The translations under genes and the position numbers were made by a program. A stretch of DNA of 64,000 bases. It comes from a virus. A model generated the notes under the pieces. That model saw nothing but the letters and a program-made list of their open reading frames with translations, was not told the DNA's origin and searched no databases. Location: IMG/VR virus record IMGVR_UViG_3300028654_000384, positions 1 through 64,000 of that record; one strand, 5' to 3'. Shown here piece by piece: positions 13,908-63,747 of this stretch (position 1 is its first letter; every line of letters begins with the position of its first letter).

Positions 13908-14195
13908 ATGAAGCTATCGGCACTGCGCCTTGTCGTCCGCGAAGAGTTGTCCCGTCTCAACGAGGTTTCCTTCGCACAGGCGGGTGCCGATCAGCCCCTG
14001 ACGCAGTTCATCAAGCACCTCAACATGGCCAAGGCCGACCTGAATGAGCTGTTTCAACAGACGACTGACACCAAGGCCGGCAATACGGCGACGAAGCTGC
14101 TCAACCAGCTCAACGCCATCATCCTGTCGCTCGACCATGCACCTGAACTGACGAAGAACCCGTTCGCCGACGCGGGACGAAAGGCACGCCGATGA
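13908..14195 (+). CDS. Small protein with capsid-targeting-like N-terminal tag
   Basis: The 95-residue reading starts at the ATG at 13908; upstream in-frame codons overlap the TACTTA element and are unlikely to be coding. The N-terminus MKLSALRLVVREELSRLNE belongs to the tag family found in at least ten other proteins of this window, with (L)-N-E as a possible prohead-protease site. The remainder is helical (KHLNMAKADLNELFQQTTD). It overlaps the next tagged gene by ATGA. By analogy with T4 internal proteins it may be packaged in the head; that is inference. Confidence 0.65.
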   Translation: MKLSALRLVVREELSRLNEVSFAQAGADQPLTQFIKHLNMAKADLNELFQQTTDTKAGNTATKLLNQLNAIILSLDHAPELTKNPFADAGRKARR

Positions 14196-14557
14196 AGCTC
14201 TCACAGAAGCAACTACGACAGATCATCAATGAAGTTGCAGGTCAGAGGATGACCGAGGCCGGCGACGACGGGCGGACGAGTTGGTCACGTGGGTACCGCA
14301 CGGGTGCAAACGAGCCGGACTACGAAGAACTCGGTGGCGCCCTCGCCGGTGCCGTCGTCAACAAGTTGACCAAGAACGTGCAGGATACCATTGACAGGAT
14401 CGTCGAGCACGTGTCGCCCGATGTTGAATTGCCGGCGCGCCTTGAAGACCTCGAAGCTGCAGCCTACGATATCGTCGAAGGGGCGATGCCGATGATCAGG
14501 GACGCGCTTGAGCGGTTGGCCGAGGCGCTGCTACGTAGTCTGATGAACCCCGAGTGA
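14192..14557 (+). CDS. Small protein with capsid-targeting-like N-terminal tag
   Basis: A 121-residue protein starting MKLSQKQLRQIINEVAG. This is the clearest example of the tag: Lys2, Ser4, Leu8-Arg9, Ile-Ile, then I-N-E followed by V, which fits the T4 gp21 cleavage pattern (I/L)-x-E. The body is acidic and helical. It overlaps the previous tagged gene by four bases and ends directly against the 3' end of the minus-strand endonuclease. No enzyme motif is seen. Confidence 0.7.
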   Translation: MKLSQKQLRQIINEVAGQRMTEAGDDGRTSWSRGYRTGANEPDYEELGGALAGAVVNKLTKNVQDTIDRIVEHVSPDVELPARLEDLEAAAYDIVEGAMPMIRDALERLAEALLRSLMNPE

Positions 14558-16213
14558 TCAGTAACTGATCTCGTAGGTCAGGTTCTTGCAACCGTAGATC
14601 CTGACGACGCCCGCTTCTTGTGCGACTTGTGCTTCTGTCAATCCCCGCGACTTATCAGCCTTGTACTTGAAGCGATTGAAGCGGTGATTGAAGTCCGTCC
14701 ACCAAAAGCGAGGTGGTGATTCACCTGTCTGGTGCCACCCTGCAGATGACCAACTGTTTGACGCACCCAAGCGGGTGTCGACGTATGACAATAGCCTTTG
14801 GCATCCCAGCTCTTTGGCCCTTGCTTGGGCACTCGATGTCAGCCTGCTCAACGCCCCGGGCACGTTGGTGCCAACCTTAGTGCAGAAGCGGGCAATTTCG
14901 AGGGCACCCTGGTGTTTCTTGTGCAGTGGCGTACGTATTGATAGTGCGGTGATGATTTCACCATTGTGACTCAATCCCAGTGCCCACGATGCCTGTGTGT
15001 CGCCGTCAATGTGATTGCGAGTGAAGAAAGATCTACGTTCAGCAGTATTGAGCTCGACGATGCTGCACTTGCGTGCTCCGACCATTACAGGCGTCAGGCC
15101 CAATCGGTGCGAGATCATAGATTCAACGATCGATCGCTTGTCACGCCACTCATCTTCAAAGACGTGGAGCAGGGTGATGCCCTTCGCTCTACACAGGTCG
15201 GTCTTGTTCTGGTGGTAGATCGCCGACTTGTGGACGATGCTGTGCCAGTAGAGGCCGTTGTACTCGATCGCTAGCGACACAGCAGGCACGAAGATGTCGA
15301 GCTCGAGTCCCTCGATCTGACCGCGATCGTTGGTGGTGATGTCGCTCGTCAATTCCCTGACATAGTTCGCAACGTCCTGTTGCCCTCGGCTACCACCGGG
15401 ATCACAGGCATAGCACCGTCCGTGTTGCAGGCGCCTGAGCGAGCTCGTCCACTGGACCCCGCACTGTGAGCATGCGACTTCAATATTGCTTGTCTTGTCG
15501 TCGACGTATGAATTTAGGCTGTCATTGATCACGCGCAGCGTGGTGCCTTCCTCGATGCGGACCTTGACGTCATCGACCTTCAATCTCTTCATGTCGTCGA
15601 GGTGTTGCCTGAGCTTGGCCTGTGAGTGAGCCAGCGAGACCTTCGCTGCCATGTCCTTGATCCTCTGATCATTCTCCTTGTTCAGGCCTTTGGCCCAGGG
15701 CGTCAGTTCGCCCGAAGCAAAGCGTCCACGTTGATTGTCAGCGAATTCTTGTAGCCTCGAGTCAGTCTCCTTGGTCAGGCCCTTCGACCACGCGACGATG
15801 GTACCCGCATCGAATGCTGCCTGGCGACCCACGCTGGTGGCTTGAGCGCGAGCTGCGACGCGCTCGTCAGTTTCCTTGGTCAGGCCCTTTGACCAACTCT
15901 CTTTACCTACGAGCTTCTCACGTCGTTTTTGTGAGATCTCCTCGGCTTTATCGGCGTCGTACAATGCGTAGATGTTGCCATTGTGGCCGCGCAGTAGGTT
16001 GCCATAGCCTTGTCGCCAACCCAACCATGTGGTGACTTGTTGGCACCCACAGGCACATAGCTTGGGACCTGAATTGAGCTCATTCCATAACGTTTGTGAA
16101 GACGTCTGGTGTGCTGTGGTCAGGTGGGTCTCAAAAGTTGTCTGGCGCTTCGATGAGAATGAACTGCACAGTGGACAAGTGATGGGTTCGACTGTCTGAC
16201 CTAGTTGTGCCAT
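14558..16213 (-). CDS. Vsr/EDxHD-like homing endonuclease with zinc fingers
   Basis: A 551-residue protein on the minus strand, opposite to nearly all neighbours. The N-terminus has a C2H2-like finger (Cys13, Cys16, His30, His35) and a CACGC cluster at 53-57. Next come three repeats of the NUMOD3-like type WSKGLTKETD (near 107, 142 and 173), a zinc ribbon (Cys248, Cys251, Cys267, Cys270), then a Vsr-like nuclease core with GLELDIFVP at 302-310 and IEYNGLYWHS at 316-325 and a downstream FEDEWRDK. This matches the EDxHD homing nuclease family (I-Bth0305I type). It shares this architecture and many motifs with the plus-strand gene at 16883, on the other side of the tail tube gene. Confidence 0.85.
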   Translation of the reverse strand: MAQLGQTVEPITCPLCSSFSSKRQTTFETHLTTAHQTSSQTLWNELNSGPKLCACGCQQVTTWLGWRQGYGNLLRGHNGNIYALYDADKAEEISQKRREKLVGKESWSKGLTKETDERVAARAQATSVGRQAAFDAGTIVAWSKGLTKETDSRLQEFADNQRGRFASGELTPWAKGLNKENDQRIKDMAAKVSLAHSQAKLRQHLDDMKRLKVDDVKVRIEEGTTLRVINDSLNSYVDDKTSNIEVACSQCGVQWTSSLRRLQHGRCYACDPGGSRGQQDVANYVRELTSDITTNDRGQIEGLELDIFVPAVSLAIEYNGLYWHSIVHKSAIYHQNKTDLCRAKGITLLHVFEDEWRDKRSIVESMISHRLGLTPVMVGARKCSIVELNTAERRSFFTRNHIDGDTQASWALGLSHNGEIITALSIRTPLHKKHQGALEIARFCTKVGTNVPGALSRLTSSAQARAKELGCQRLLSYVDTRLGASNSWSSAGWHQTGESPPRFWWTDFNHRFNRFKYKADKSRGLTEAQVAQEAGVVRIYGCKNLTYEISY

Positions 16214-16289
16214 GGTTGATTATACGTATCCACCTATTCTTGTATAGTGCACTTGAGTGAGTTTTAGGTCATAATCCTAGATGACGTGA

Positions 16290-16295
16290 TAGTTA
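16290..16295 (+). promoter_or_regulatory. Candidate late promoter element TAGTTA (tail tube)
   Basis: The context is GTGATAGTTAGCC, 47 bases before the tail tube ATG, with a GGAG ribosome-binding site at about 16328. It lies in the gap behind the divergent endonuclease gene. Confidence 0.45.
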
Positions 16296-16336
16296 GCCTT
16301 GAATGGTGCACCACGCACCCCCAAATGGAGATAAAA

Positions 16337-16825
16337 ATGGCCGAAACGCTCGACGTGACAAGCATGCTTCCCAACAAATTCGAACCCAAGCGCAAGAACC
16401 GTTGGGTGCTCCAGATTGAAGGCGTTGACGCCTACATCATCAAGACGGCCGCGCGGCCCACGGTGACGACGGAGCCCGTCGAGATTCCCTTCATCAACAG
16501 CCGCCGTTACTTGGCCGGGCTGACGAAGTACGGCACCATCGCCGTCACCTTGCACGATCCCATCGCACCGTCGGGCGCGCAGCAGGTGATGGAGTGGGTG
16601 CGACTGCACTTCGAGAGCGTGTCGGGTCGGTCGGGCTACGCCGACTTCTACAAGCGTGACATTCAGCTGAAACTTCTCGATCCCGTTGGGACGGTGGTGG
16701 AGTTATGGGATGTTAAAGGTGCGCTGATCACCGAGGCCAACTTCGGTGAACTCACCTATGAAGACGGCACCCCTGTCGAGATCGCTCTCACTATTCAGGC
16801 GGATCAGTACGTTTTGCAGTTCTAA
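16337..16825 (+). CDS. Tail tube protein (gp19-like)
   Basis: A 162-residue protein. I chose the ATG at 16337 because GGAG lies just upstream; an ATG at 16325 is also possible. The pattern MLPNKFEPKRKNRWVLQIEG, then ISSRRY-like NSRRYLAGLTKYGTIAVTLHDPI, then a terminal strand ADQYVLQF is the standard layout of small T4-like tube proteins (T4 gp19 is 163 residues). It forms the stacked hexamer rings inside the sheath. It is bracketed by two homologous homing endonucleases in opposite orientations. Confidence 0.88.
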   Translation: MAETLDVTSMLPNKFEPKRKNRWVLQIEGVDAYIIKTAARPTVTTEPVEIPFINSRRYLAGLTKYGTIAVTLHDPIAPSGAQQVMEWVRLHFESVSGRSGYADFYKRDIQLKLLDPVGTVVELWDVKGALITEANFGELTYEDGTPVEIALTIQADQYVLQF

Positions 16826-16846
16826 GCGACCTTAGTACACATTGGG

Positions 16847-16876
16847 TTGTACAACTTACGTGGGTCGTGGTACAAT
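16847..16876 (+). promoter_or_regulatory. Promoter TTGTAC-18-TACAAT, leaderless
   Basis: TACAAT begins exactly 12 bases before the ATG at 16883, so the predicted +1 is the A of the start codon. There is no Shine-Dalgarno sequence. Confidence 0.65.
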
Positions 16877-16882
16877 TGTGCC

Positions 16883-18538
16883 ATGGCCTACGATCGTTTA
16901 AAGTGTCAGCTGTGTGCCAAGGACTTCGGCCAAGAGGTTGGCTTCCTGCGCCATGTCGCCGACGTTCATGGACTACAACCCGACGAAGAACTTTACGTCA
17001 CGTGGACACTCGTACCTGCAGTCAAGCCCACCTGTGCCTGTGGTTGTGGCCAAGTCGTCAAGTGGAATGGGTGGAAAAAGGGGTACACGTCGAAGTACCT
17101 GCGGGGTCACAACGCTGCATCCGACACCGTCTTTGCCGATCCCGTTCGCGCAAAGGAGTTCGCAGAGAAACGCGCGAAAGGCTACGCCGACGGCAAGTAC
17201 TCGTCGTGGAACAAGGGCCTGACCAAGGAGAATGATCCACGCATTCAGGTGATCGCTGACAAGATCTCCGCATCGCTGATCGAGGGCTACGCTTCAGGGT
17301 CGATCGTTGACTGGCACGCGCTCGATCCTGATAAGGCCCGTGCCGCGGTAGCAAAGCAGTCAGCGACGAAGGCAGCTCGGTTCGCGTCAGGTGAATTGGT
17401 GCCGTGGAACAAGGGTGAAACGAAAGAGACCAATCCGATCATTGCTGCCGCAGCGGTGAAGATTGCCGCGCAGTACACACGCCCCAATGCCGGCGCGCGC
17501 ATCAAGCTCGACCAGGTGAAGGAGCGGATTGACGCACACGCTGACAAGTTCACCGCCGTGTCTGACCTGAGCGAGTACACGACTCGTCGCGTTGCTCGGC
17601 TCAAATTTCGCTGCACTGTCTGCGGCACCGAACAGAGCAAGAGCCTCGCCATGCTCGAGGAGTGTCCCGTCTGCTTCACCTGTCACCCGAAGGAGTCGAA
17701 GGGTCAACTCGAGGTCTACGACTTCGTCAAGGCGCTGTCACCCGACGCTGTGCTGTCAGATCGCACCGTCATCGCTCCACTAGAGCTCGACGTCTTTGTC
17801 CCCTCGCACAAGTTGGGCATCGAGTACAACGGCCTTTACTTCCACAGTGCCGAGTGCCTCACTGACCCGAACTATCACCAGCGCAAGCTCGAGGCCTGTC
17901 TCACCGCCGGCATCAACCTGTTTTCCGTCTACGAGGACGAGTGGCGTGATCGCCGGCCCATCATCGAGGCCATGATCCGTCACCGCCTGTTGTCACCCAC
18001 CGTCACCTACCACGCTCGTAAGTTGTCGGTCGTCGAGCTACCAACCGCTCAGGCTCGTGCCTTCTTTGACGCCAACCACCTCGAGGGCTATGCACGGTCG
18101 TCGGTCACCCTCGGCCTCGTCGATACCAAAGATGGTGTGGTCGCCGCCATGGCACTGCGCAGGCCCTTTCACCGAGGCCATGCCTCATCATACGAGGTGT
18201 CGCGGTGCTGTGCCAAGTTGGGCACCTCTGTCCGCGGTTGGCTGGGCAAGTTGACGACGCGTGCCGCGGGGTGGGCCGCCGAACGGGGTTCGGTGCAGCT
18301 GATGACCTACGTCGATGCTCGTGTCGGCAGGGGCACGGGCTATGAAGCGGCGGGTTGGCAGCTGGTCAAGGCATCGACGGGCATCCGCTTCTGGTGGACT
18401 GACTTCGATCACCGCTACAACCGCTTCAAGTTCAAGGCCGACAAGGCTCGAGGCATGACGCAGGCCCAAGTCGCTGATGAGGCAGGCGTCGTCCAGATCT
18501 TCGGCTGCACCAACTCATCATGGCGTTACGTGATCTGA
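16883..18538 (+). CDS. Vsr/EDxHD-like homing endonuclease with zinc fingers
   Basis: A 551-residue protein. The start at 16883 is fixed by the leaderless promoter; an upstream in-frame codon at 16847 lies inside the promoter. Layout: N-terminal finger Cys8/Cys11/His24/His29, CACGC cluster, NUMOD3-like repeats (WNKGLTKEND, PWNKGETKETN), a zinc ribbon (CTVCG, CPVC, C-H-P-K), then a Vsr-like core with LELDVFVP, IEYNGLYFHS and YEDEWRDR, and a C-terminal half ending FWWTDFDHRYNRFKFKADK. It is a clear paralogue of the minus-strand gene at 14558-16213. Confidence 0.86.
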   Translation: MAYDRLKCQLCAKDFGQEVGFLRHVADVHGLQPDEELYVTWTLVPAVKPTCACGCGQVVKWNGWKKGYTSKYLRGHNAASDTVFADPVRAKEFAEKRAKGYADGKYSSWNKGLTKENDPRIQVIADKISASLIEGYASGSIVDWHALDPDKARAAVAKQSATKAARFASGELVPWNKGETKETNPIIAAAAVKIAAQYTRPNAGARIKLDQVKERIDAHADKFTAVSDLSEYTTRRVARLKFRCTVCGTEQSKSLAMLEECPVCFTCHPKESKGQLEVYDFVKALSPDAVLSDRTVIAPLELDVFVPSHKLGIEYNGLYFHSAECLTDPNYHQRKLEACLTAGINLFSVYEDEWRDRRPIIEAMIRHRLLSPTVTYHARKLSVVELPTAQARAFFDANHLEGYARSSVTLGLVDTKDGVVAAMALRRPFHRGHASSYEVSRCCAKLGTSVRGWLGKLTTRAAGWAAERGSVQLMTYVDARVGRGTGYEAAGWQLVKASTGIRFWWTDFDHRYNRFKFKADKARGMTQAQVADEAGVVQIFGCTNSSWRYVI

Positions 18539-18560
18539 TCGTCAGTGTGCGGGTGACGAA

Positions 18561-18566
18561 TACTTA
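18561..18566 (+). promoter_or_regulatory. Candidate late promoter element TACTTA
   Basis: The context is GAATACTTACTTTC; the motif begins 14 bases before the ATG at 18575, giving a leader of about two bases. It closely resembles the element at 13896, which precedes another tagged gene. Confidence 0.45.
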
Positions 18567-18574
18567 CTTTCATC

Positions 18575-19012
18575 ATGCAGCTCACCGAACGTCACCTCCG
18601 CGACCTCATCGGTCAGGTCATCACTGAAGCCAAGGGCAAGGATCGCGGCGCCGACGCTGCCAAGCAGGTGGCTGATGCTATCAAGGTGCTCATCACGGTG
18701 GGCCCCAAGGTCGAGAAGTACTTTGAGGAGAAGTTGTCTATGATGACGACGATCCCCGCTATGTTCTCTGACGAGCTCGAAGTAGAACATGTTGTCGACA
18801 AACTGCGTAATCTCATTGATAAGGCGGTGGAGCTCGACGATGTCGTGGTGCCTGTATACAAGGCCGCCGCAAAGGCTGCGCCCAAGGCTCCCACCCGCGA
18901 CCGCTCTCGCGGCCGCCTGGCCAACGCCAATCCTACCGCCGACGAGCGTTCACTGGGACTAAACAAGCGTCGTGAAATTCGGCGTCAGGCACGTGAGCGT
19001 GGTCGGACCTAG
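18575..19012 (+). CDS. Tagged small protein with basic C-terminus
   Basis: A 145-residue protein starting MQLTERHLRDLIGQVITEAKG, a member of the tag family whose I-T-E|A would suit a prohead protease. The middle is helical and amphipathic. The last 45 residues are Ala/Lys/Arg-rich (KAAAKAAPKAPTRDRSRGR, ending RQARERGRT), as expected for a DNA-associated protein. A head-packaged DNA-binding internal protein would fit the tag, the basic tail and the late-type motif; this is inference. Confidence 0.65.
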   Translation: MQLTERHLRDLIGQVITEAKGKDRGADAAKQVADAIKVLITVGPKVEKYFEEKLSMMTTIPAMFSDELEVEHVVDKLRNLIDKAVELDDVVVPVYKAAAKAAPKAPTRDRSRGRLANANPTADERSLGLNKRREIRRQARERGRT

Positions 19013-19020
19013 GCCACCAC

Positions 19021-19281
19021 ATGTCCTCCTGGCTCCGCGACGGCACCGCACCCCCACCGAGGGCCCTCGAAATAATCATCGGCCACTTCGATAGGGTTGC
19101 CTGTCCCACATACCTCGGGGCCATCTCGCTTGAAGTGGGGTGGAGCCTGGCCCGGACGCAGGAGATGGTGACGGTGCTGGTGCATCAGGGCTTGGTGCGT
19201 GAGCTGTCGATCGATGAAAAGCGGGCAATGGGTGGTGACGCTGACCACACAATCTACGTGCGCGTGTCAAAAGCGGCCTGA
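19021..19281 (+). CDS. Small putative winged-helix protein
   Basis: An 86-residue protein. The pattern ALEIIIGHF...YLGAISLEVGWSLARTQEMVTVLVHQGLVREL, followed by a polar turn and a strand TIYVRVS, looks like a winged helix (three helices and a wing). That would suit a small transcription regulator, but no family was recognised. It starts nine bases after the tagged gene and precedes the baseplate chaperone operon. Confidence 0.5.
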   Translation: MSSWLRDGTAPPPRALEIIIGHFDRVACPTYLGAISLEVGWSLARTQEMVTVLVHQGLVRELSIDEKRAMGGDADHTIYVRVSKAA

Positions 19282-19319
19282 GATCACGCGGTAGCTGACA
19301 CCTATCCTCGTCGGTGGTG

Positions 19320-19325
19320 TATGAT
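19320..19325 (+). promoter_or_regulatory. TANNNT -10 element (TATGAT)
   Basis: It is preceded by TGACAC at 18 bp. The predicted start at 19332 gives a short leader containing GAGGAA before the ATG at 19348. Confidence 0.45.
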
Positions 19326-19347
19326 GACCATTGAACGAGGAATGCAC

Positions 19348-20217
19348 ATGTCAGACGAACGTGAACAGCGTAACCAGGTCTTTGCAGCGGCGCCCACCGC
19401 CGGCGTCGATGCGCGGATCCCGACTCAATCGGCCGTAGACAAGTTCAAGGCCGACTTCGGCATTGACATCCCGACGGAGACAGTGCCCCTGCCGTCGAAT
19501 GGCAAGGTCTACCCGCCGGCGTCGCCGCTCCACAATCAGGAGACGGTCGACATTCTACCCATGACGGCCCGCGAAGAGGACATCCTGACCAGCCGCGCCC
19601 TGATGAAGAAGGGCACCATCCTCAGTGAACTGATCAAGTCGTGCCTCGTCAACAAGGCCATCGACCCGCTCGACATGCTGATCGGTGATCGGACGGCAAT
19701 CATGGTCGCCATCCGGATCACGGGCTACGGCGCCGACTATGACACCGAAGTCGAGTGCAATGAGTGCCAGAACAAGTCGCCCAAGCCCTTTAACTTGGGT
19801 GAACTGCCCATCAGGCGCTTGGCACTGACACCTGTCGCCGACGGCCTCAACTTGTTTGAGTTCACGTTGCCGCTGACCAAGAAGGTGATCAGGTTCAAGT
19901 TCCTGACGGGCCGCGATGAGGAGCAGATCACGGCGACGGCGGACAGGCAGAAGAAGCTAAACCTACAGTCCGACGCGACGGTGACGACCAACCTGTTGTA
20001 CTGCATTCAGGCCATTGACGGCATCGAGGATCGGGCCAAGATCGCCTCCTTCGTCAGGATGATGCCCGCGCGGGACTCACTGGCGCTACGTAGCTATATC
20101 CGCGACAACGAACCCGGCATCATCATGCGGCAGGAGGTGACGTGCCCGTCCTGTGGATGTACGGAGGTGATCTCGATGCCAATTGGGATTACGTTCTTTT
20201 GGCCTGGCTCCAAGTGA
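19348..20217 (+). CDS. Baseplate hub assembly chaperone, gp26-like (T4 base plate protein family)
   Basis: A 289-residue protein. The start at 19348 follows GAGGAA; longer in-frame starts overlap the promoter. The order LPSNGKVYPP, then PMTAREEDILTSRALMKKG, then DRTAIMVAIRITGYGADYDT and a zinc ribbon (CNECQNKSPKPF with CPSCGC near the C-terminus) is that of the family Pfam names T4 bacteriophage base plate protein (PF12322; T4 gp26/gp51 region). These are needed for baseplate hub assembly. The downstream small gene overlaps it, as in related phages. Confidence 0.8.
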   Translation: MSDEREQRNQVFAAAPTAGVDARIPTQSAVDKFKADFGIDIPTETVPLPSNGKVYPPASPLHNQETVDILPMTAREEDILTSRALMKKGTILSELIKSCLVNKAIDPLDMLIGDRTAIMVAIRITGYGADYDTEVECNECQNKSPKPFNLGELPIRRLALTPVADGLNLFEFTLPLTKKVIRFKFLTGRDEEQITATADRQKKLNLQSDATVTTNLLYCIQAIDGIEDRAKIASFVRMMPARDSLALRSYIRDNEPGIIMRQEVTCPSCGCTEVISMPIGITFFWPGSK

Positions 20218-20473
20218 CAAAGAGCTGCTCATCTGGGAACCAGCGTTTCTCTGCGTCTATTATGGGGGCATGACTGCATCTGAGGCGTATAACCTTCCCG
20301 TTCCCGTCAAACGTTGGTGGGTGGATCGCATCGTGCGCGAGCTCAATAAGGACAAGAGCGTCGATGGCGATAGCTCTCCGAGCCGTGCTCTCCACACCAA
20401 TTCTCCTGAAGTGAGGCAGATGCAGGGTAGAACAAGGCCGCAGTCACCTTCTCGTTTGAGGCGCTTCACTTGA
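20183..20473 (+). CDS. Small conserved baseplate-operon protein
   Basis: A 96-residue reading with a TTG start overlapping the preceding gene by 35 bases. The conserved core is LLIWEPAFLCVYYGGMTASE followed by NLPVPVKRWWVDRIVREL, a pattern I associate with the small protein encoded just after the baseplate chaperone in many myoviruses. The tail is basic and Ser/Arg-rich. Its function is unknown; a role in tail or baseplate assembly is inferred from position. The exact start is uncertain because no good ribosome-binding site is visible. Confidence 0.6.
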   Translation: MGLRSFGLAPSDKELLIWEPAFLCVYYGGMTASEAYNLPVPVKRWWVDRIVRELNKDKSVDGDSSPSRALHTNSPEVRQMQGRTRPQSPSRLRRFT

Positions 20474-20488
20474 TCTCCTTCTAGTGGA

Positions 20489-20494
20489 TAGTTA
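20489..20494 (+). promoter_or_regulatory. Candidate late promoter element TAGTTA
   Basis: The context is GTGGATAGTTAGATC, 52 bases before the ATG at 20541, in the intergenic gap. Confidence 0.35.
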
Positions 20495-20540
20495 GATCTG
20501 CAGCGAATTGTGGAGAACGCCGCGGCAGAAAGACACTCTC

Positions 20541-20831: not shown

Positions 20832-20852
20832 TTCCACGCCCTAGAGCGGGAA
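20832..20852. terminator. Possible bidirectional hairpin between convergent genes
   Basis: TTCC(A)CGC and GCGGGAA pair around CCTAGA, giving about seven pairs with one bulge. It sits exactly where the plus-strand and minus-strand genes converge. There is no T-run, so terminator function is uncertain. Confidence 0.3.
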
Positions 20853-21125: not shown

Positions 21126-21133
21126 GGCGACGA

Positions 21134-21139: not shown

Positions 21140-21158
21140 TGTCACAGGATGTTGACCT

Positions 21159-35546: not shown

Positions 35547-35771
35547 ATGAGCAATTCACTGCTCGAAAAGTACATCAGGTTGATGGTTCAAGAGGCACAT
35601 GATGCCCGGGTACCCAATCAATTGGTCGGTGACTCGGGTGATGAGGGCGAACAGGTTGAAGTGGATGAGGCATCGGTGGTTGGCGGCATAGCAGGCTACA
35701 CTGCACCTCTCGGCATGGATCCAGACAAACTAGGACGTAGGAAGAACGCATCCAAGCGGAAGCGCAAGTAA
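35547..35771 (+). CDS. Tagged small acidic/basic protein
   Basis: A 74-residue protein. N-terminus MSNSLLEKYIRLMVQEAHD is a looser version of the tag (V-Q-E|A at the putative cleavage site). The middle is acidic (GDEGEQVEVDEASVVGG) followed by IAGYTAPLGM and a very basic end (GRRKNASKRKRK). The GxAGYTxPLG segment is one I associate with small proteins of marine phages. A virion-associated role is inferred. A strong hairpin lies 26 bases after the stop. Confidence 0.55.
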   Translation: MSNSLLEKYIRLMVQEAHDARVPNQLVGDSGDEGEQVEVDEASVVGGIAGYTAPLGMDPDKLGRRKNASKRKRK

Positions 35772-45889: not shown

Positions 45890-46258
45890 ATGAGGGTCAG
45901 TTACCGCGCACTGAAGAAGATCATCCGTGAAGTGGCGCTGTCGCCCTCCGTCTTCAAGAACAACCACGTGGTGCAGGATCCCATGGATCGGCCCAACATC
46001 GCGCAGGCACTGACGGCGTTGGAGCAGCCCTTCAAGACTGGGTTGGAGACCAACCTCGTCCTCGATGCCCGTGACAGCTACGACGAGGAGACGCGGGAGC
46101 TCGACGATGCCGAATACGCGAGGATCAAGGACGTGGCGGCGAAGGCGACTGAGTTGATGCTGGCTCGCGCCCACAAGGCGGTGCAGGCGTCGTGGGCCGA
46201 GGCGATGAAGGGCGTGGGCAGCGCCGACAAAGCAACCGTACAGAAGAAGGTGGCGTGA
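45890..46258 (+). CDS. Tagged small protein (first of four in tandem)
   Basis: A 122-residue protein, ATG after AGGAG. N-terminus MRVSYRALKKIIREVALS: a basic first helix ending in I-R-E|V, the tag and a candidate prohead-protease site. The remainder is helical, with acidic segment DSYDEETRELDDAEYARIKD and Ala/Lys-rich end. It overlaps the next tagged gene by one base. Its arrangement with three others (46258, 46509, 46858) suggests one operon of co-produced virion proteins. Confidence 0.68.
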   Translation: MRVSYRALKKIIREVALSPSVFKNNHVVQDPMDRPNIAQALTALEQPFKTGLETNLVLDARDSYDEETRELDDAEYARIKDVAAKATELMLARAHKAVQASWAEAMKGVGSADKATVQKKVA

Positions 46259-46509
46259 TGGCAAAGGTAATCAAGCTAACGCAGGAGCAGCTCAGGAATC
46301 TCATCAAGGAAGGGATTAGTACCGGCGAAGTGCGTGCAATGACCCATCACCTACAAGACATTAAACGCTCTCTTGGGCGGATGGGTGCTATTCAACAAGG
46401 CATTGGATATGGCAATACGACATCCGAGATCTCCAGTGCACTCGATGCGCTTAAAAGTGCCATCGATGAAGTCGACGAAGTGCTCATTCAGGCACTCGGA
46501 GGTAAGTGA
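46258..46509 (+). CDS. Tagged small protein (second of four)
   Basis: An 83-residue protein. N-terminus MAKVIKLTQEQLRNLIKEGIS, where the tag KLTQEQLRNLIKE is displaced four residues by a short extension. The body is a long amphipathic helix region (SEISSALDALKSAIDEVDEV). Starts by overlap with the previous stop; the ATG at 46258 is chosen because the longer frame overlaps the previous gene without a start signal. It overlaps the next gene by one base. Confidence 0.65.
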   Translation: MAKVIKLTQEQLRNLIKEGISTGEVRAMTHHLQDIKRSLGRMGAIQQGIGYGNTTSEISSALDALKSAIDEVDEVLIQALGGK

Positions 46510-46853
46510 TGGTAAAGTTGTCAGTGAAACAACTGCGGAATCTCATTCGTGAAGCCGGTGAAGGTCTGAAGACCCCTTCTCGGCACATGAGGTGGGGCAC
46601 ATGGATGGTTGCATGGGGCGTAGCGCTAGCCGATGCAGGTGTCAACCAAGAGGATCTGCCGATCTTCGACGTCGTTGATGAGGACATGGGACAACTTGCT
46701 CTGGAGAAGATGTGGGGCGACTTCTTCGATAAGGGCAAGTCACCTGAAGAAGCCGTAGCACTGGCGATGGATCGTGATGCGTTCGCTGCTGACTATTACG
46801 ATCCCTACATCGACGAATTCACTAGTGAACTTGAACACGCTGGGAGGCTGTGA
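46509..46853 (+). CDS. Tagged small protein (third of four)
   Basis: A 114-residue protein. N-terminus MVKLSVKQLRNLIREAGEG is almost the same as that of the preceding protein (QLRNLI-E) and contains the I-R-E|A site. The body is acidic and helical, with Trp/Asp-rich segments (MRWGTWMVAWGVALADAG). Coupled by overlap with the upstream gene. No enzyme motif is seen. Confidence 0.66.
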   Translation: MVKLSVKQLRNLIREAGEGLKTPSRHMRWGTWMVAWGVALADAGVNQEDLPIFDVVDEDMGQLALEKMWGDFFDKGKSPEEAVALAMDRDAFAADYYDPYIDEFTSELEHAGRL

Positions 46854-46857: not shown

Positions 46858-47151
46858 TTGAAATCCACGGTGGGCCAGCTGCGCCGCATCCTCTTTGAAG
46901 AGGCACCTCCGCGCGTGCTGCACGAGGCCTACCTCAACGGCGTGCCCGAGTGGCAGCTCCGCCAAGATACCACCGACTACGTTGACCAGATCCGCGTCCG
47001 CATCAAGCAGTTCATCCTGCTGAACAAGAGCCAGAGCTCGTCAGACCAGCGTGAGGCCATCAACGCCATGAACGACGTCTGTGATGAACTCGAGATGAAA
47101 CTCTATGACCAACTGGAAAATAGTCTCTTCGACTTCACGCGGCGAGTTTGA
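46858..47151 (+). CDS. Tagged small protein (fourth of four)
   Basis: A 97-residue protein. A TTG at 46858, four bases after the previous stop, gives MKSTVGQLRRILFEEAPPR, the tag with L-F-E|E. The longer in-frame ATG lies deep in the previous gene and is rejected. The body is helical (YVDQIRVRIKQFILLNKSQS). Product may be co-translated with the upstream gene. Confidence 0.6.
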   Translation: MKSTVGQLRRILFEEAPPRVLHEAYLNGVPEWQLRQDTTDYVDQIRVRIKQFILLNKSQSSSDQREAINAMNDVCDELEMKLYDQLENSLFDFTRRV

Positions 47152-58026: not shown

Positions 58027-58306
58027 ACCCGTACGCGAGGATCCCGCCACGTTGCAGCGGCAGATTGCGTACTACACTCACGTACAGCGCTGTGCGTCAA
58101 TTCGCCGTGAACGTGCCGAGGAGCTGATGCAGCGTCCCGTCGCCAAGTCTTGGGACGCGGCCAAGAAGGCCAAGATGGTGCGCAAGTTGATGGCGTCGAA
58201 GCAGGAGTTCGATCAGTCGGTCAGCGCGCTCGACCAGCTCAACTTCAGGTTGCAGCAGGTCACCAACGGGCAGGGCACTTCGGGACCTGTCACCAACACG
58301 CCATGA
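57980..58306 (+). CDS. Small coiled-coil protein
   Basis: A 108-residue protein. The N-terminal 25 residues are Thr/Pro/Glu-rich, then long basic helices (RRERAEELMQRPVAKSWDAA; KKAKMVRKLMASKQEFDQSV) with heptad periodicity. No domain is recognised. It overlaps the upstream gene by 47 bases and the downstream gene by ATGA, and lies between two methyltransferases. Confidence 0.55.
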   Translation: MDTKQPLIGQTPTSTEPVREDPATLQRQIAYYTHVQRCASIRRERAEELMQRPVAKSWDAAKKAKMVRKLMASKQEFDQSVSALDQLNFRLQQVTNGQGTSGPVTNTP

Positions 58307-59079
58307 ATACCATTCACCAAGCCACTGCGTTGTCGGTGCTGAAGGCGACGCCTGACAACAGCGTCGATCTTGTGTACTCCGATCCGCCTTTTGGCACCGG
58401 CGTTGTGCAGTCGTCTCACGGTATGGCATACAACGACGTCACACTGGAGTACGGCGCCTTCTTGAGCCAGCACCTCGTTGAATTTCACCGCGTCCTGAAA
58501 CCCACGGGTACCCTGTACCTGCACCTCGACTGGCGACACGTGCACATCGCTCGTCTCGACTGCGATCAGATCTTCGGTACAGACAACTTTCTCAACGAGA
58601 TTATCTGGAGCTACAATTTTGGGGGCCGTGGCAAGACGACATGGGCACGTAAGCATGATAACATTCTCGTCTATGCCAAGCACGCTGGTCAGCACGTCTT
58701 CAACTACGATGACATTGACCGCGTGCCCTACAAAGCTCCCGACATGCAGCGAGTGGGCAGGACACCTGAAGACGCTGAGGCTCGCATCGCACGTGGGCAG
58801 GTGCCGACCGACGTTTGGGAGATGAGCATCATCGGGACGAACGCCAAGGAACGCACGGGGTATCCCACACAAAAGCCCCTAAAGCTCGTCGAACGCATCA
58901 TCACCGCCAGCTCGCCACCCGGGGGTCTGGTCATGGACGTCTTCGCGGGTTCTGGCACCACAGGCGAAGCCGCACACAAGCACGGCCGTTCGTTCGTCCT
59001 TGCCGACACCAACCCACAGGCGATTGAAGTGATGCAGCGACGATTGAAGGACGTGCCCACTGATTGGAGATTACCGTGA
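58303..59079 (+). CDS. DNA methyltransferase (DPPF)
   Basis: A 258-residue protein. Catalytic DPPF at residues 27-30 (VYSDPPFGTG), YPTQKPLKLVERII (AdoMet site) and VFAGSGTTGEAAHKHGRSFV. Class beta N4-cytosine or N6-adenine type. It starts by ATGA overlap and ends overlapping the next gene by four bases. Different sequence from the DPPY enzyme, so a distinct target is likely. With the MT-A70 enzyme this makes three. Confidence 0.86.
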   Translation: MNTIHQATALSVLKATPDNSVDLVYSDPPFGTGVVQSSHGMAYNDVTLEYGAFLSQHLVEFHRVLKPTGTLYLHLDWRHVHIARLDCDQIFGTDNFLNEIIWSYNFGGRGKTTWARKHDNILVYAKHAGQHVFNYDDIDRVPYKAPDMQRVGRTPEDAEARIARGQVPTDVWEMSIIGTNAKERTGYPTQKPLKLVERIITASSPPGGLVMDVFAGSGTTGEAAHKHGRSFVLADTNPQAIEVMQRRLKDVPTDWRLP

Positions 59080-60020
59080 CCGACGTCGTGAACTTCAATG
59101 AAGTCAAGCTGAACAAGCCCCTGTTGACGATGCTGCACGAAGGCCAGCTCTTCAACCGTGGCACGTTGGAACTGCTTGGGCTCGTCTTCGAGCACGGTGG
59201 CTACATCGCTGGCGGTTTTGCGGCGTTGGTCGCCCGCCACGTGGTCATGTGCACACCAGCGGCAGACTTTTACCGTGATGTCGTCAATCACACGGGAGGC
59301 CCGATCAAGGTCGCTGGGTGGTCGCATGCGTTTCGTCGCCACGGTGACATCGACGTCTTCTTCTCGTCACAGCAACAACTCGACGGCTTTCTCAACGATC
59401 CACGTCGGTCGATCGTCGACTTGAACGTCACGCCGACGGTGACGGGCGCTGGGTTGGATCACATCGTCGATGGAGATGTCAAGGTGCAGGTCATCACCCG
59501 GTGGGCGAGGCCGATGAAGGAGCACATGACCAGCTTTGACATCTACAACTCCATGGCGGGCGTGACGAATGAAGTGTTGGTGATGGCGGAGCAGTGGGAA
59601 GCGCTCGAGCGAGCCATGATGCTGCACGTGACGACGTGGGCCGGGCCGTGGACAGTCGGCCGTGTCTTCAAGTATGTCAACACTAAGGGCTACAGTACAC
59701 TGACACCGTTGACTGCGGCTTACCTACACAGTGAGGTGTGCAAGACGCTGGAGCAGGTCAAGTCGGTGCGCTTTGAGATCGAACACGCTCGCATGGTGAC
59801 TCGCAAGGCTCCTCCCGCTCACCTCCACCTCGAATTGCAGCGTAACACACTGTTGAGGTACATGGTCGGGTGTAGAGAGGGTAGGAAGCAGTGGGTGTTG
59901 AAGCCCCTGCTGGCCAGTTTCACTGCAGAGCAATTGCTGACGTTGTCGGCGCTGTGTGGGACGGAACCCGCGTACGACTACGCCATGAAGGAAATTCACA
60001 GGCGCATGCCCGTCGGGTGA
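59076..60020 (+). CDS. Polymerase-beta-like nucleotidyltransferase
   Basis: A 314-residue protein, GTG start overlapping the previous stop. It contains HGGYIAGGFAALVARH (the Gly-rich nucleotide loop) and RHGDIDVFFSS (the D-x-D metal pair), the two hallmarks of the polymerase-beta/CCA-adding superfamily, with a helical C-terminal region (about residues 200-310). This is a second such enzyme in the window, unlike that at 53366. Substrate unknown; tRNA or RNA 3' ends are the usual choice. Confidence 0.7.
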   Translation: MTDVVNFNEVKLNKPLLTMLHEGQLFNRGTLELLGLVFEHGGYIAGGFAALVARHVVMCTPAADFYRDVVNHTGGPIKVAGWSHAFRRHGDIDVFFSSQQQLDGFLNDPRRSIVDLNVTPTVTGAGLDHIVDGDVKVQVITRWARPMKEHMTSFDIYNSMAGVTNEVLVMAEQWEALERAMMLHVTTWAGPWTVGRVFKYVNTKGYSTLTPLTAAYLHSEVCKTLEQVKSVRFEIEHARMVTRKAPPAHLHLELQRNTLLRYMVGCREGRKQWVLKPLLASFTAEQLLTLSALCGTEPAYDYAMKEIHRRMPVG

Positions 60021-60051
60021 GGTGTGATGCATAAGATGCATCAGCACTGCC

Positions 60052-60057
60052 TAGTTA
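60052..60057 (+). promoter_or_regulatory. Candidate late promoter element TAGTTA
   Basis: CTGCCTAGTTATCGCTGAC begins 14 bases before the ATG at 60066. It shares TTATCGCT with the elements at 45866 and 61716. Confidence 0.45.
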
Positions 60058-60065
60058 TCGCTGAC

Positions 60066-61016
60066 ATGTACCTCGCGCCCAAGCGGCTTCGACCCGGAGC
60101 CCGCGTTGCCATCATCGCCCCTGCTTCACCCTTTCGCCCTGAAGAGCTGGTGGTGGGCCTCGACGTCGTCCGCGAGTGTGGCCTTGAGCCCGTGCTGGGC
60201 CCCAACGTCAGGTCACTGCGGACGGTTGACATCCACGCCGCACCGCTGGTCGACCGCGCTGAAGAACTGATGTGGGCCTTCACCGACCCGACGATCAGCG
60301 GTGTCATCTGTGCGTTGGGTGGCTACGGCAGCGCCGAGACGTTGCCCTACCTCGACTTTGACAAGATCAGGGCCTCAAGGCGCCCGCTGCTAGGCCTGAG
60401 CGACATCTCGGCCCTCAACAATGGCCTGTTGACGGGCGCGGGCCTCATCAGCATCAATGGCCAGTACCCGGCGATCAGGCTCGACAAGGGTGAGCGCATC
60501 AAGAAGCTCGACTGTGAGTCGCTGAAGTTTGGCTTGGAATTGATGATGAGCGACCAGCCGTGGGACGTACGTCCCTTTGCAGTCAACCAGTTCCTGCCCC
60601 GGACGGTGTCGCCCGGGCGGGCCAGCGGCCACGTCATCGGCATGAACTTGGAGACGTTCTGTTGCTTGCTGGGCACCCCCTTCTTTCCCGACGCCCAGGA
60701 TGCTATTCTGTTCATTGAGGACGTGCGCAAGGACGGCGAAAAAGTGGCCCGCATGTTTAGCCAACTGCGCCTCGCTGGCGTCCTTGACAAGGTGGCTGGC
60801 ATCGTCGTCGGTGAGTTTGCCGAGGTGCCGACGAAGTTGGAACCCGACGTGCCGTCGATCGAGGACGTCATCCTGCAGTACCTGTCGAACGGGCCCCCGT
60901 GTATGTATGGGGCATCCTTCTCTCACGGCGATTGGACAATTCCCGTCCCGGTGGGAGCACAGTGTACGATGGATGCAGATACGGGTGAAGTGTCCTTTGA
61001 CTTCTCGATGGCCTGA
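60066..61016 (+). CDS. LD-carboxypeptidase-like protein (S66 family)
   Basis: A 316-residue protein from the ATG at 60066; in-frame upstream ATGs overlap the motif TAGTTA. Conserved blocks: RPGARVAIIAPASPF, LGGYGSAETLPYLDF, GLSDISALNN (nucleophile Ser112), FIEDV (Glu218) and SFSHGDW (His287), so the Ser-Glu-His triad of S66 is intact. These cut the tetrapeptide L-D bond in peptidoglycan or hydrolyse acyl-AMP toxins (MccF). In a phage it could act in lysis, wall remodelling or defence against microcin-like toxins. Confidence 0.85.
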   Translation: MYLAPKRLRPGARVAIIAPASPFRPEELVVGLDVVRECGLEPVLGPNVRSLRTVDIHAAPLVDRAEELMWAFTDPTISGVICALGGYGSAETLPYLDFDKIRASRRPLLGLSDISALNNGLLTGAGLISINGQYPAIRLDKGERIKKLDCESLKFGLELMMSDQPWDVRPFAVNQFLPRTVSPGRASGHVIGMNLETFCCLLGTPFFPDAQDAILFIEDVRKDGEKVARMFSQLRLAGVLDKVAGIVVGEFAEVPTKLEPDVPSIEDVILQYLSNGPPCMYGASFSHGDWTIPVPVGAQCTMDADTGEVSFDFSMA

Positions 61017-61041
61017 ACACCCCCGCGTTCCGCATTAGGAT
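61013..61041 (+). promoter_or_regulatory. Promoter CTGAAC-17-TAGGAT
   Basis: It begins at the LD-carboxypeptidase stop and predicts transcription at about 61048, so the HNH gene would have a 95-base leader. Confidence 0.55.
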
Positions 61042-61090
61042 TGGACTGTGATCTTGTCAGTCGAATTTTTGAGTGTGGTGCCGTGGGCTG

Positions 61091-61119
61091 TGCAAGCGTG
61101 TGCGGTGTAAGTATAGGAT
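61091..61119 (+). promoter_or_regulatory. Promoter TGCAAG-17-TAGGAT
   Basis: Predicted start at about 61126, before GAAGGATG and the GTG start of the HNH gene at 61143. The same TGCAAG/GTATAGGAT pair occurs at 25021. Confidence 0.55.
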
Positions 61120-61142
61120 GAACTCTGACGAAGGATGATCCC

Positions 61143-61700
61143 GTGAAGCGCGCCCTGCTCCTCAATGCCGATTACACACCCCTCCATTTCATCAGCGATT
61201 GGCGTGCCATTCGCCTGGTGATGCTCTCTCGCGCCGAGATCGTCATTGACTTTCAGACGGGTCTGCCGTCGGTGTGGGATGACGAGGCCTTCACTTCGCC
61301 CGGATTGATGCCCACTGATCCACTGCGATCGGTCGCCATCCCGGCGACGTTGCGGATGTACCGCAAGATCCACAAGAAGTGGAAGCCACCGCGTTTTCGC
61401 AGCCAAGTGTTGTTCAACCGTGATGATTGGACGTGCCAGTATTGCGGCACCAAGTTGTCGTGGAAGACGGTCGAGATCGAGCACGTGGTGCCGTTGTCAC
61501 GTGGTGGGCCGACGACGTGGCTCAACTGCGTGTCTGCGTGCAGGGACTGCAACAAGCGCAAGGGCAACAGGACGCCCGACGAAGTGGGCATGAAGCTGTT
61601 GAAGAAGCCCGCCAGTCCGACGGCACTGCACTTCTGGGACGCCGCCAAGACCGATTGTTACCACCCGTCGTGGGATACATTCCTCCCGAAGGAACGCTGA
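61143..61700 (+). CDS. HNH endonuclease
   Basis: A 185-residue protein with a GTG start after GAAGGATG. HNH motif: Cys98-x-x-Cys101 (CQYCG), EIEHVVPLSRGGPTTWLNCV (Glu113, His114, Asn128) and CRDCN (Cys133, Cys136), i.e. zinc-stabilised HNH. It is like stand-alone phage and bacterial HNH proteins rather than a homing gene with DNA-binding repeats, so it could work in packaging or host DNA degradation. It has two promoters in front. Confidence 0.85.
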   Translation: MKRALLLNADYTPLHFISDWRAIRLVMLSRAEIVIDFQTGLPSVWDDEAFTSPGLMPTDPLRSVAIPATLRMYRKIHKKWKPPRFRSQVLFNRDDWTCQYCGTKLSWKTVEIEHVVPLSRGGPTTWLNCVSACRDCNKRKGNRTPDEVGMKLLKKPASPTALHFWDAAKTDCYHPSWDTFLPKER

Positions 61701-61715
61701 CCGACGCGTCGCTGA

Positions 61716-61721
61716 TACTTA
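61716..61721 (+). promoter_or_regulatory. Candidate late promoter element TACTTA
   Basis: Shares the 20 bases from GATACTTATC to CAGGAGC (61714-61733) with 45864-45883, including the AGGAG ribosome-binding site. Confidence 0.55.
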
Positions 61722-61741
61722 TCGCTCAGGAGCCTGTGCGC

Positions 61742-62923
61742 ATGCGATTGAACCTGACTGAGTTGCAGCGAGTCGTGGAGCGAACAATTGACGAAGAGAG
61801 GGCCGTTGATGCCCTGAAGGGTGAAATCCGCCGCGTCTTGGGCCCGGTCGTCATCACTGAGGGTCGGCTAGAACACGTCGTGGCCGAGGCCAATGATCGC
61901 CTCGACGTCCTGCACCGCACGGGCCGCGACGGGCAACTTGACTTTCTCTCCAACATCACCACGACCTTCATCGACCACAAGCACCCCGAGGTTCGACGCT
62001 TTGCGGCGCGCATCATCCCGGAACGTTTCTTGCCCAAGATGGTGACCGACAAGGACGCCGCCGTCCGCGCCGCCGTCGCCATGCGGGTGCCCATGCCCGC
62101 GGTTCGCGAGATGATGAAGCGCTTCAAGCACGACGACCAACTACGTGCCATCTATCGCCAACGCAAGCAGGCGCTGCACGAGGCGGGCATCAGCCCACCC
62201 AAGGCAGAACCCCTGGGCCATGACCCTGTCGACGGTGCAGAGCGAATGGGCGACGTGGCCCGGACGGCCGAAGGCCCCGAATTGAGCGATGCATGGTACG
62301 ACGAACAGGCCCGCCTCTTCATTCACGACTACGCTCGAGCCGAGGCCAATGATCAGCATGCCCGGTTGCTCGATCGGGGGTGGGCATCGCTCGTCGTCCG
62401 CCGCTTCTGTGCCAGCACCAAGGCGACGGCGCACGTTGAGATCGATGCAGAGAAGTTGCTGAAGCACGTCAACGACCTGATGGAAGAGAAGGACGATCGG
62501 ACGCTGGAACGCGACGCGATGAAGGAGACCCTGGCGTGGTTGGGTGCGCAGGACATCAATGAGTCGGCACTGCCTGAATTCCACGAGATCATCGATCCCG
62601 TCCGTGCACTGCTGGAGGCCAACCTGTCGCAGGAACAGTACGTCGCCGAGGCGCTGAAGCTGTTCAACGTCAAGCGGTCGGAGCTGCCCAAGGGCATCCG
62701 CAAGTACTGCCTGGGTGAGGCCAACCTGCGGGTGACGTTGGTGCCGTGCCTGGGTAGCCTGCCGCACCAGCACGGTTTCCGCGCCGTCGACGAGCGTGCC
62801 CTCGACAAGTTCTGTGAGTCGTGGAACGACGGCCAAGCGCTGGTCGGCGAGCCCTTCGTCCTCAACTGGGGACCTCACCAGGGCGATGCATCGAAGGTCA
62901 ACTTTACCGTCACCCTGAAGTAA
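61742..62923 (+). CDS. Tagged 393-residue protein, HEAT-repeat-like part
   Basis: The ATG at 61742 follows CAGGAG; a longer upstream frame is a shadow in the HNH gene. N-terminus MRLNLTELQRVVERTIDEER is a tag variant with I-D-E|E. The body is helical, with segments like RRFAARIIPERFLPKMVTDK that look like HEAT/ARM repeats, and an acidic linker. The C-terminal part has a polar globular domain (YCLGEANLRVTLVPCLG). It is the largest tagged protein here and may be a head-internal or scaffold-associated protein. Confidence 0.65.
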   Translation: MRLNLTELQRVVERTIDEERAVDALKGEIRRVLGPVVITEGRLEHVVAEANDRLDVLHRTGRDGQLDFLSNITTTFIDHKHPEVRRFAARIIPERFLPKMVTDKDAAVRAAVAMRVPMPAVREMMKRFKHDDQLRAIYRQRKQALHEAGISPPKAEPLGHDPVDGAERMGDVARTAEGPELSDAWYDEQARLFIHDYARAEANDQHARLLDRGWASLVVRRFCASTKATAHVEIDAEKLLKHVNDLMEEKDDRTLERDAMKETLAWLGAQDINESALPEFHEIIDPVRALLEANLSQEQYVAEALKLFNVKRSELPKGIRKYCLGEANLRVTLVPCLGSLPHQHGFRAVDERALDKFCESWNDGQALVGEPFVLNWGPHQGDASKVNFTVTLK

Positions 62924-62926
62924 GAT
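62921..62926 (+). promoter_or_regulatory. TANNNT -10 element (TAAGAT), leaderless
   Basis: TAAGAT begins exactly 12 bases before the ATG at 62933 and overlaps the stop of the preceding gene (TAA). The -35 region (CAACTT) is weak. Confidence 0.45.
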
Positions 62927-62932
62927 CTTGAG

Positions 62933-63415
62933 ATGCAGACGACGCTCGGCAAGCTGAAGTACGTGATCAGCGAGGTGCTTGAGGCCAACCAGGTGCTCAA
63001 TCGCCTGCGTGCCGTTGCTGCTGGCAAGAAGCCCTACATGGTGGGCCAGTGGGCGACGGTGCCCCGAGATTATTCACAGCCCAGCGTGGGCGTCGCTAGT
63101 TGTTGGGTTGCCGAAGACCCCGAGTTGGGCAAGGTGTACCTGACGTTTAGCTCACACATCACCTACAAGAAGGTCAAGAACAGTCGCCTGCGCGATCCCG
63201 GCGGCACCCGCTATGCCTACACCGCGATCCTGTCGTCGCACCCGTGGGAGACGTTTGAGAACCACGGCAATGTGCCTGTCTTCAAGCTGGCGGCGACGGG
63301 TGAAGGCCGCGAGGACGACAAAGCACTGCAGGCGCGCAAGCAGATGGTGAAGCTGTTCGGCGTCGACCCGATGGCCCACAGGGGCCCACTTGAACCGACG
63401 GAGACACGAAGATGA
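62933..63415 (+). CDS. Tagged protein
   Basis: A 160-residue protein. N-terminus MQTTLGKLKYVISEVLEANQ is the tag with I-S-E|V. The remaining part has a beta-type domain (WATVPRDYSQPSVGVASCWV; GKVYLTFSSHITYKKVKNSR) and a helical basic end (EDDKALQARKQMVKLFGVDP). Function unknown; co-translated with the next tagged gene through ATGA. Confidence 0.65.
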   Translation: MQTTLGKLKYVISEVLEANQVLNRLRAVAAGKKPYMVGQWATVPRDYSQPSVGVASCWVAEDPELGKVYLTFSSHITYKKVKNSRLRDPGGTRYAYTAILSSHPWETFENHGNVPVFKLAATGEGREDDKALQARKQMVKLFGVDPMAHRGPLEPTETRR

Positions 63416-63747
63416 AGACGACAATCAGCAAGCTGAAGCAGTTGATCAACGAGCACCTGTTGGTCGAGGTACCCGTTGGATCCGGCATGCGCAAGCCGCA
63501 GTTCGGCCTGTCGTCGGGAGGCGGTGGTCTCAGGCCCGCCAAGTTCGATCCTGCAGTGCACGATCTCAAGGACGTCATGTGGGCCGTCATGGACGAGTTT
63601 GCGGGCGTTGCCTCTGACCTCGGTGTCGACGACATCAAGGATCCCGCCTTCATCGGTTACATCGGCGATCAGTTGACTGATAAGGGTGTGCCCAACGACA
63701 TCATCCTGCAGGTCAAGGCCAAGCTGCAACGCGGGCAGTCGCGTTAG
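63412..63747 (+). CDS. Tagged small protein
   Basis: A 111-residue protein. N-terminus MKTTISKLKQLINEHLLVEV carries the tag with I-N-E. The body has a Gly/Pro/Arg-rich segment (FGLSSGGGGLRPAKFDPAVH) and a helical region (LKDVMWAVMDEFAGVASDLG). Overlaps the previous gene by four bases. No enzyme motif seen. Confidence 0.66.
   Translation: MKTTISKLKQLINEHLLVEVPVGSGMRKPQFGLSSGGGGLRPAKFDPAVHDLKDVMWAVMDEFAGVASDLGVDDIKDPAFIGYIGDQLTDKGVPNDIILQVKAKLQRGQSR

Follow-up and report, generated by a model that had tools for sequence, protein, structure and literature searches.

Capsid Targeting in T4 and a Probable Counterpart in a Large Related Phage

In bacteriophage T4, the dissimilar internal proteins IPI–IPIII begin with a short capsid-targeting sequence (CTS), MKTYQEFIAE. 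In IPIII ten residues suffice for targeting, with residues 4 and 7 important for targeting and residues 8 and 10 for processing (PMC9026906), and the gp21 protease cuts at L/I-x-E (PMC9026906, PMC3012670). The CTS has been proposed by reviewers as a general way for T4-like phages to pack proteins (PMC9026906). A comparable case is the phiKZ-like Salmonella phage SPN3US, in which many different ejection (E) proteins are packed into the head and cut by the prohead protease (PMC5694885, PMC10052503). A review of jumbo phages places the S77 family in two of its groups, and no mention of capsid targeting turned up when it was searched by terms (PMC7824862). Here we describe a segment shared by the N-termini of eleven open reading frames (ORFs) in a window of 64,000 nucleotides, i.e., bases 1–64000 of the linear IMG/VR virus record IMGVR_UViG_3300028654_000384 (215,857 bp in total). 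The segment is probably a capsid-targeting tag that works like that of T4, on a large, uncultured and distant T4-type myovirus.

As in T4, the segment is short, N-terminal and borne by dissimilar proteins, it ends in or precedes (L/I)-x-E, the gp21 motif, and an S77 (gp21-type) protease, a gp22-like scaffold and gp23 belong to the same phages, here as read from sequence. The differences are that the tag is MKITKxQLRxIIKEE instead of MKTYQEFIAE, with only the MK start and the hydrophobic-x-Glu end alike, that it spans about 14–22 residues instead of 10 and is often followed by a second, separate cut site, that at least 20 genes carry it in some phages, often in tandem, against a handful in T4, and that two head-module genes bear it. 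The design of the tag is that of the T4 CTS. Its novelty lies in the sequence, in the additional likely cut site that many relatives have apart from the helix, in the tens of genes, arranged in arrays, that use it, and in its occurrence on core genes. With the E proteins of SPN3US it shares a set of multiple, diverse proteins, head-packed and protease-cut there and predicted to be so here, but the head is of the T4 type (S77, Gp23), one short tag is common to the proteins, and (L/I)-x-E is the motif.

Tagged Proteins of the Window and the Record

The phage of the window has a GC content of 58% and is a T4-like myovirus, with neck genes, two tail sheaths, a tube, a baseplate hub, a gp32-like single-stranded DNA-binding protein, UvsX, a DnaB-like helicase and ribonucleotide reductase. 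Genes were called with a simple model of our own, and a few tagged genes that it overlooked were added manually. A position-specific scoring matrix (PSSM) was built from 26 rows, picked by regular expression from the tags of related phages only, and then run on the 215,857-bp record. Eleven ORFs of the window have the segment (a slash marks the predicted cut point):

13908..14195, + strand: tagged protein, 95 residues, MKLSALRLVVREELSRLNE/VSF..., 16.8 bits; VRE and LNE sites
14192..14557, + strand: tagged protein, 121 residues, MKLSQKQLRQIINEVAGQRMTE/AGDD..., 13.6 bits; INE and MTE/A sites
18575..19012, + strand: tagged protein, 145 residues, MQLTERHLRDLIGQVITE/AKGK..., 17.0 bits; ITE/A
35547..35771, + strand: marginal tagged protein, 74 residues, MSNSLLEKYIRLMVQE/AHDA..., 4.6 bits; VQE/A; N-terminus resembled by that of relative G005 (MSDVLRQYIQEMILEVK, L094)
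45890..46258, + strand: tagged protein, 122 residues, MRVSYRALKKIIRE/VALS..., 16.1 bits; IRE
46258..46509, + strand: tagged protein, 83 residues, MAKVIKLTQEQLRNLIKE/GIST...; second in a run of four successive tagged genes
46509..46853, + strand: tagged protein, 114 residues, MVKLSVKQLRNLIRE/AGEG...; IRE/A
46858..47151, + strand: tagged protein, 97 residues, TTG start, MKSTVGQLRRILFEEAPPRVLHE/AYL..., 16.8 bits; LFE and LHE/A
61742..62923, + strand: 393-residue protein with a divergent tag, MRLNLTELQRVVERTIDE/ERAV..., 2.1 bits; IDE; its G005 homologue has a similar N-terminal helix, MQLKLEKLQKVASKVVSEE
62933..63415, + strand: tagged protein, 160 residues, MQTTLGKLKYVISEVLE/ANQV..., 13.4 bits; ISE and VLE/A
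63412..63747, + strand: tagged protein, 111 residues, MKTTISKLKQLINEHLLVE/VPVG..., 16.5 bits; INE and LVE

The preliminary description of this DNA had counted eleven such proteins under a written pattern; of the eleven listed here, five fit it exactly (14192, 45890, 46858, 62933 and 63412), five depart from it by a minor shift or substitution (13908, 18575, 46258, 46509 and 61742), and one, 35547, is marginal next to the ten clear cases. It had counted nine with (I/L)-x-E at or just past the segment, a slight undercount, since ten of the eleven have such a site and 35547 has VQE. The search that it had suggested for the rest of the genome yielded about 16 further tagged proteins beyond the window, i.e., 27 in total by hand count.

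Among the 256 predicted proteins with a length of 60 residues or more, and with shuffled N-termini as the null, 19 reached at least 6 bits (1.28 expected), 16 at least 8 bits (0.36 expected) and 11 at least 12 bits (0.04 expected). Only 3 of 975 uncalled ORFs scored at least 6 bits, and the top scorer was a genuine tagged gene at 134658. That the segment arose by chance, or that it is a start-codon element at the nucleotide level (a translation enhancer or promoter) and no protein signal, is the most improbable of the explanations considered: it would fit the finding that the segment starts at the start codon almost always, but about 1.3 proteins were expected where 19 were observed, and the strict pattern, when reversed, had no matches in 37 records. 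The codons of the tag are freely synonymous as well (Leu as CTG, CTA, CTT, TTA or CTC; Ile as ATT, ATC or ATA), while the residues are the same in AT-rich marine phages and in this 58% GC phage, and in one relative (L104) the motif occurs twice inside the core protein s2 (see below), away from the start.

The cargos, i.e., the parts downstream of the tag, include a J-domain plus WGR protein and a NUDIX protein in this phage. The small tagged proteins of the window gave no informative match to Pfam or PHROGs, and IMG/VR searches with 61742 and with the J-domain protein recovered nothing but copies of this phage. Another tagged protein, of 269 residues (L002:15977-16786, record 99477-100286), has a possible PD-(D/E)XK nuclease motif (DIRIDIP...FLEVKL), although a Pfam search gave no family match; it adjoins a 422-residue protein with an EKLDG ligase-like motif.

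Spread of the Tag and Diversity of the Cargos

Twelve related records were collected by homology to the window gene at 4721-5947. The environmental consensus of the tag is M-K-I-T-K-x-Q-L-R/K-x-I-I-K/R-E-E, and an alignment of 100 tagged proteins gave MKITKxQLRxIIKEExxxxLxE with little in common past the tag. The preliminary description had called MKIT-type N-termini common in marine phages, and a degenerate DNA pattern indeed matched widely in IMG/VR. The strict pattern was found in up to 26 genes per phage and in none of 12 random large viral records; record G019 has a run of successive genes that are all tagged, with 13 strict matches in 9 kb and more by eye. A tblastn search of cultured phages with the 20-residue consensus gave no match, possibly due to low-complexity masking, and blastn with the tag DNA gave weak, scattered matches only. 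No clear tag was found by DNA pattern in the cultured T4-like relatives HTVC008M, Mosig, Vibrio phage 2.275.O, Cr30, Mel-JY01, immuto and RM378, with immuto having a single tag-like N-terminus, MKKSQLRQIIKEAL. None of six core strings of the motif had a match in the open-access papers that were searched.

Among the loci collected, at least 457 distinct tagged proteins fell into 320 cargo groups (blastp, 1e-4), 266 of them singletons, which bears out the earlier view that the proteins are otherwise unrelated. They had also been called mostly small, a fair statement for an environmental median of 118 residues that does not cover several enzymes or chaperone-like proteins of 190–406 residues. Cargo domains in other phages include YkuD (L,D-transpeptidase), AAA_33/polynucleotide kinase, HAD and PAP2, and the majority of cargos have no known domain. 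The tag is absent from the NUDIX cargo's homologue in G005, and a second tagged phage has a J-domain hit without it, as would be expected if the module can be acquired and lost again.

These data bear on the idea that the tagged proteins are a single paralogous family, of which the N-terminus was conserved while the remainder diverged past recognition, so that there is no transferable tag. The tandem arrays, as expected of duplicated genes, and the lack of a recognizable domain in most cargos would agree with it. Yet 320 cargo groups at 1e-4, unrelated folds (J-domain plus WGR, NUDIX, YkuD, AAA_33, HAD and PAP2) and the two untagged homologues make it very improbable.

The Head Module and Its Tagged Core Genes

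A Pfam S77 (T4-type) prohead protease was found in 10 of the 12 related records. In their head module, terminase and portal are followed by a gene for about 285 residues, the S77 protease, s1, s2, one or two further genes, the scaffold and the gp23-like capsid protein. The small genes s1 (MGITKNQLKLIVKECLVEILAEG...) and s2 (MKLTSxLLKxIIxEE...), which the protease and scaffold genes enclose, both carry the tag. They recall the T4 core proteins gp67 and gp68 by position and composition, being small, rich in (L/I)-x-E and in the same neighbourhood, with s2 charged and partly acidic. In T4, the small core genes lie between portal and protease; here they lie between protease and scaffold, and s1 differs further by a C-terminal W-A-x-L-A that it shares with the scaffold.

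This C-terminal motif, W-A-x-L-A-(G/F), is common to scaffold and s1 in L096, L101, L104 and L373 and also occurs in s1 of L340 and L341 (e.g., DRWAKLAG, SKWAALAF, ERWATLAG, GRWANLAF), and may possibly be a common docking site of the core. In the two large relatives L340 (11110-14965) and L341 (11269-15150) there is a tandem pair of gp23-like capsid protein genes with near-identical N-termini. The idea that the tag is a copy of the capsid protein N-terminus was tried and set aside as a weak lead, with scores of 9–11 bits in close relatives and −6 in L373.

A gp21-like protease had been proposed as a check. In the record itself (215,857 bp) no S77 was found, because the record is without a head module, but an 18.4-kb contig (L373) from metagenome 3300028556, found by a capsid protein search, encodes Portal_T4 (PF07230, E = 1e-69), Peptidase_S77 (PF03420, E = 9e-24) and Gp23 (PF07068, E = 2e-75), together with tagged s1 and s2 in a T4 core-gene neighbourhood. 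An 8-kb fragment from the same metagenome (L009) matches the window gene 4721-5947 at 100%, with the same offset. The GC content of L373 (57.1%) matches that of the phage, its tetranucleotides correlate at r = 0.947, inside the range of the phage's own 16-kb blocks, and its codon usage at r = 0.93, the next best tested being 0.86. L373 is therefore probably the head module of this phage. It also has a peptide deformylase gene (L373:3946-4458; PF01327, E = 2e-44), which belongs to the head module and lies close to the prohead protease and to tagged s1.

Placement and Avoidance of the Predicted Cut Site

The preliminary description had the segment end as the T4 CTS does. The concentration of (L/I)-x-E just past the tag agrees with this; in many marine relatives, however, the cut is likely at a second (L/I)-x-E, 7–8 residues past the tag Glu, instead of the helix-ending one. 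Across 284 environmental tags, each from a different cargo group, the Glu of [LIM]xE past the helix was at +8 from the tag Glu in 88 (7.0 expected), at +7 in 36, at +4 in 26 and at +5 in 16, and farther than +8 it was below expectation. In the phage of the window, 18 of the 27 tagged proteins have [LIMV]xE/[AGS], a wider class than (L/I)-x-E, in residues 9–26 (2.7 expected; 3.4% of 234 untagged proteins), and with one site picked per protein, the residue right after it is Ala in 13 of 27, against a background of 9.6%.

If cargos are exposed to the protease, internal sites should be avoided, which is a prediction of capsid targeting and not an established defining feature. In environmental cargos (n = 278) the observed/expected ratio of [LI]xE was 0.92, against 1.22 in untagged neighbours, whereas [LI]xD (1.34 against 1.05) and [LI]xQ (1.37 against 1.03) were raised; the depletion has an odds ratio of 0.59 (p = 1e-13), and the E/(D+Q) ratio is 0.49 (bootstrap 0.42–0.58) against 0.84 in untagged proteins. 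The avoidance concerns Glu and extends to neither Asp nor Gln. The opposite holds for the core: in relatives [LI]xE is enriched in scaffold (1.71), s1 (3.27) and s2 (1.87) against portal (1.00) and terminase (1.07), with the mature capsid protein also raised (1.66), and the z-scores of these enrichments overstate independence because the rows are homologous. The L373 scaffold has 13 sites where 8.4 are expected, and in the capsid prosegment L58-x-E60 is invariant.

Several observations weigh against capsid targeting. In many marine tags the residue right after the helix-ending site is Glu, not Ala, Ser or Gly. The 27 cargos of the phage itself, a small sample of 3,942 residues, show no avoidance of (L/I)-x-E (38 observed, 29 expected). 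By tblastn with G005 proteins, sheath and neck were found in the record but terminase, portal, protease, scaffold and capsid protein were not, and the assignment of L373, made from composition and sample instead of linkage, is only probable because no sequence overlap joining it to the record was found. The association with S77 speaks for capsid targeting, with all 14 tag-bearing records of at least 100 kb having it and only 2 of 6 equally large random viral records (Fisher p = 0.003), but that control is small. On comparison, sequence homology of the consensus to MKTYQEFIAE was not shown, so that the likeness is one of shared design and not of proven descent. We know of no virion proteome of a phage with a clear form of the tag.

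The first two of these points would also suit a docking helix that stays uncut and gathers proteins at a phage structure, be it head core, tail, replication site or membrane, with (L/I)-x-E a by-product of a helix rich in Leu, Ile and Glu, and the segment is indeed amphipathic and Ile/Leu/Glu-rich. Such a helix would leave unexplained, however, that the site peaks at +7/+8, outside the conserved helix, at 5–12 times expectation and then falls under it, that environmental cargos avoid Glu only, that Ala so often follows the chosen site in the phage's own tags, and that the tag is on genes within the head module. We regard it as unlikely, though as the most plausible of the rivals, and the data lend strong indirect support to a much expanded, sequence-distinct variant of T4-style capsid targeting, in line with the T4-type interpretation first given to these proteins, which the genomic evidence supports.

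Proposed Mechanism and Significance

The N-terminal amphipathic helix of the tag would dock on the prohead core during head assembly, the core being composed of a large acidic scaffold and two small proteins with the same helix. Closure of the gp23-like shell would then enclose the docked cargos, and the S77 protease would cut (L/I)-x-E at the end of the helix or a few residues past it, setting the cargo free inside the head, and would shred the scaffold too. After DNA is packed in, the cargos (chaperone-like, NUDIX, a putative nuclease and many unknown) would enter the next host along with the DNA. The sequences themselves show the tag, its modular spread, its occurrence on head-core genes, the protease, the placement of the site and, among environmental cargos, its avoidance. 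Docking on the core and cleavage, which position and sequence support, are inferred, as are the cargos' location in the virion and, from T4, their ejection and their function in the host.

A general code for cargo loading is reasonably likely to be common to large environmental T4-type phages: a short MKITKxQLRxIIKEE tag and a prohead-protease site, borne by as many as 26 or more genes of one phage, in tandem cassettes that can be exchanged. A large and mostly unknown set of proteins active in the first minutes of infection could then be listed from sequence alone. If this is true, a sequence search can tell which phage proteins accompany the DNA into the host, and hundreds of hypothetical environmental phage proteins become candidate packaged effectors, including J-domain/WGR, NUDIX hydrolase, polynucleotide-kinase-like and L,D-transpeptidase proteins. 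Each infecting particle could carry its own protein toolkit, and internal-protein tagging, known from a few T-even coliphage proteins, would be a major strategy of large aquatic phages that involves tens of genes. It would also provide a defined protease rule and possibly a short peptide with which proteins could be brought into phage heads.

Other Features of the Record

An untagged gene for the neck adjoins the gene 4721-5947 that was used to collect the relatives:

2419..3588, + strand: neck/head-tail adaptor gene, untagged (phrog_211, head-tail adaptor Ad2, E = 4.5e-8; 61% identity to the neck gene of relative G005)

The two tail sheath genes of the window (6035-9115 and 9963-13013) encode about 1,020 residues each, with 53% and 34% identity to the sheath of one relative, and a third sheath-like gene is present in several relatives. 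On either side of the tail tube gene are two 551-residue proteins (14558-16213 on the − strand and 16883-18538 on the + strand) with C2H2-type zinc-finger-like N-termini, as judged by eye; proteins resembling them adjoin the capsid gene in relatives, also by eye, and they are possibly homing endonucleases. A patatin-like protein with a GGGAKGAYQVG motif, again noted by eye, is encoded at 609-1466.

Elsewhere in the record, genes for malate synthase and isocitrate lyase lie side by side (L003:1441-2976 and 2992-4374, record 104441-105976 and 105992-107374; PF01274 and PF00463), i.e., a complete glyoxylate shunt, and the occurrence of these two genes in a viral genome has been discussed in a marine virus study (PMC5332604). 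A GroEL chaperonin gene is found at L004:6710-8371 (record 129210-130871; phrog_5725, E = 6e-146).

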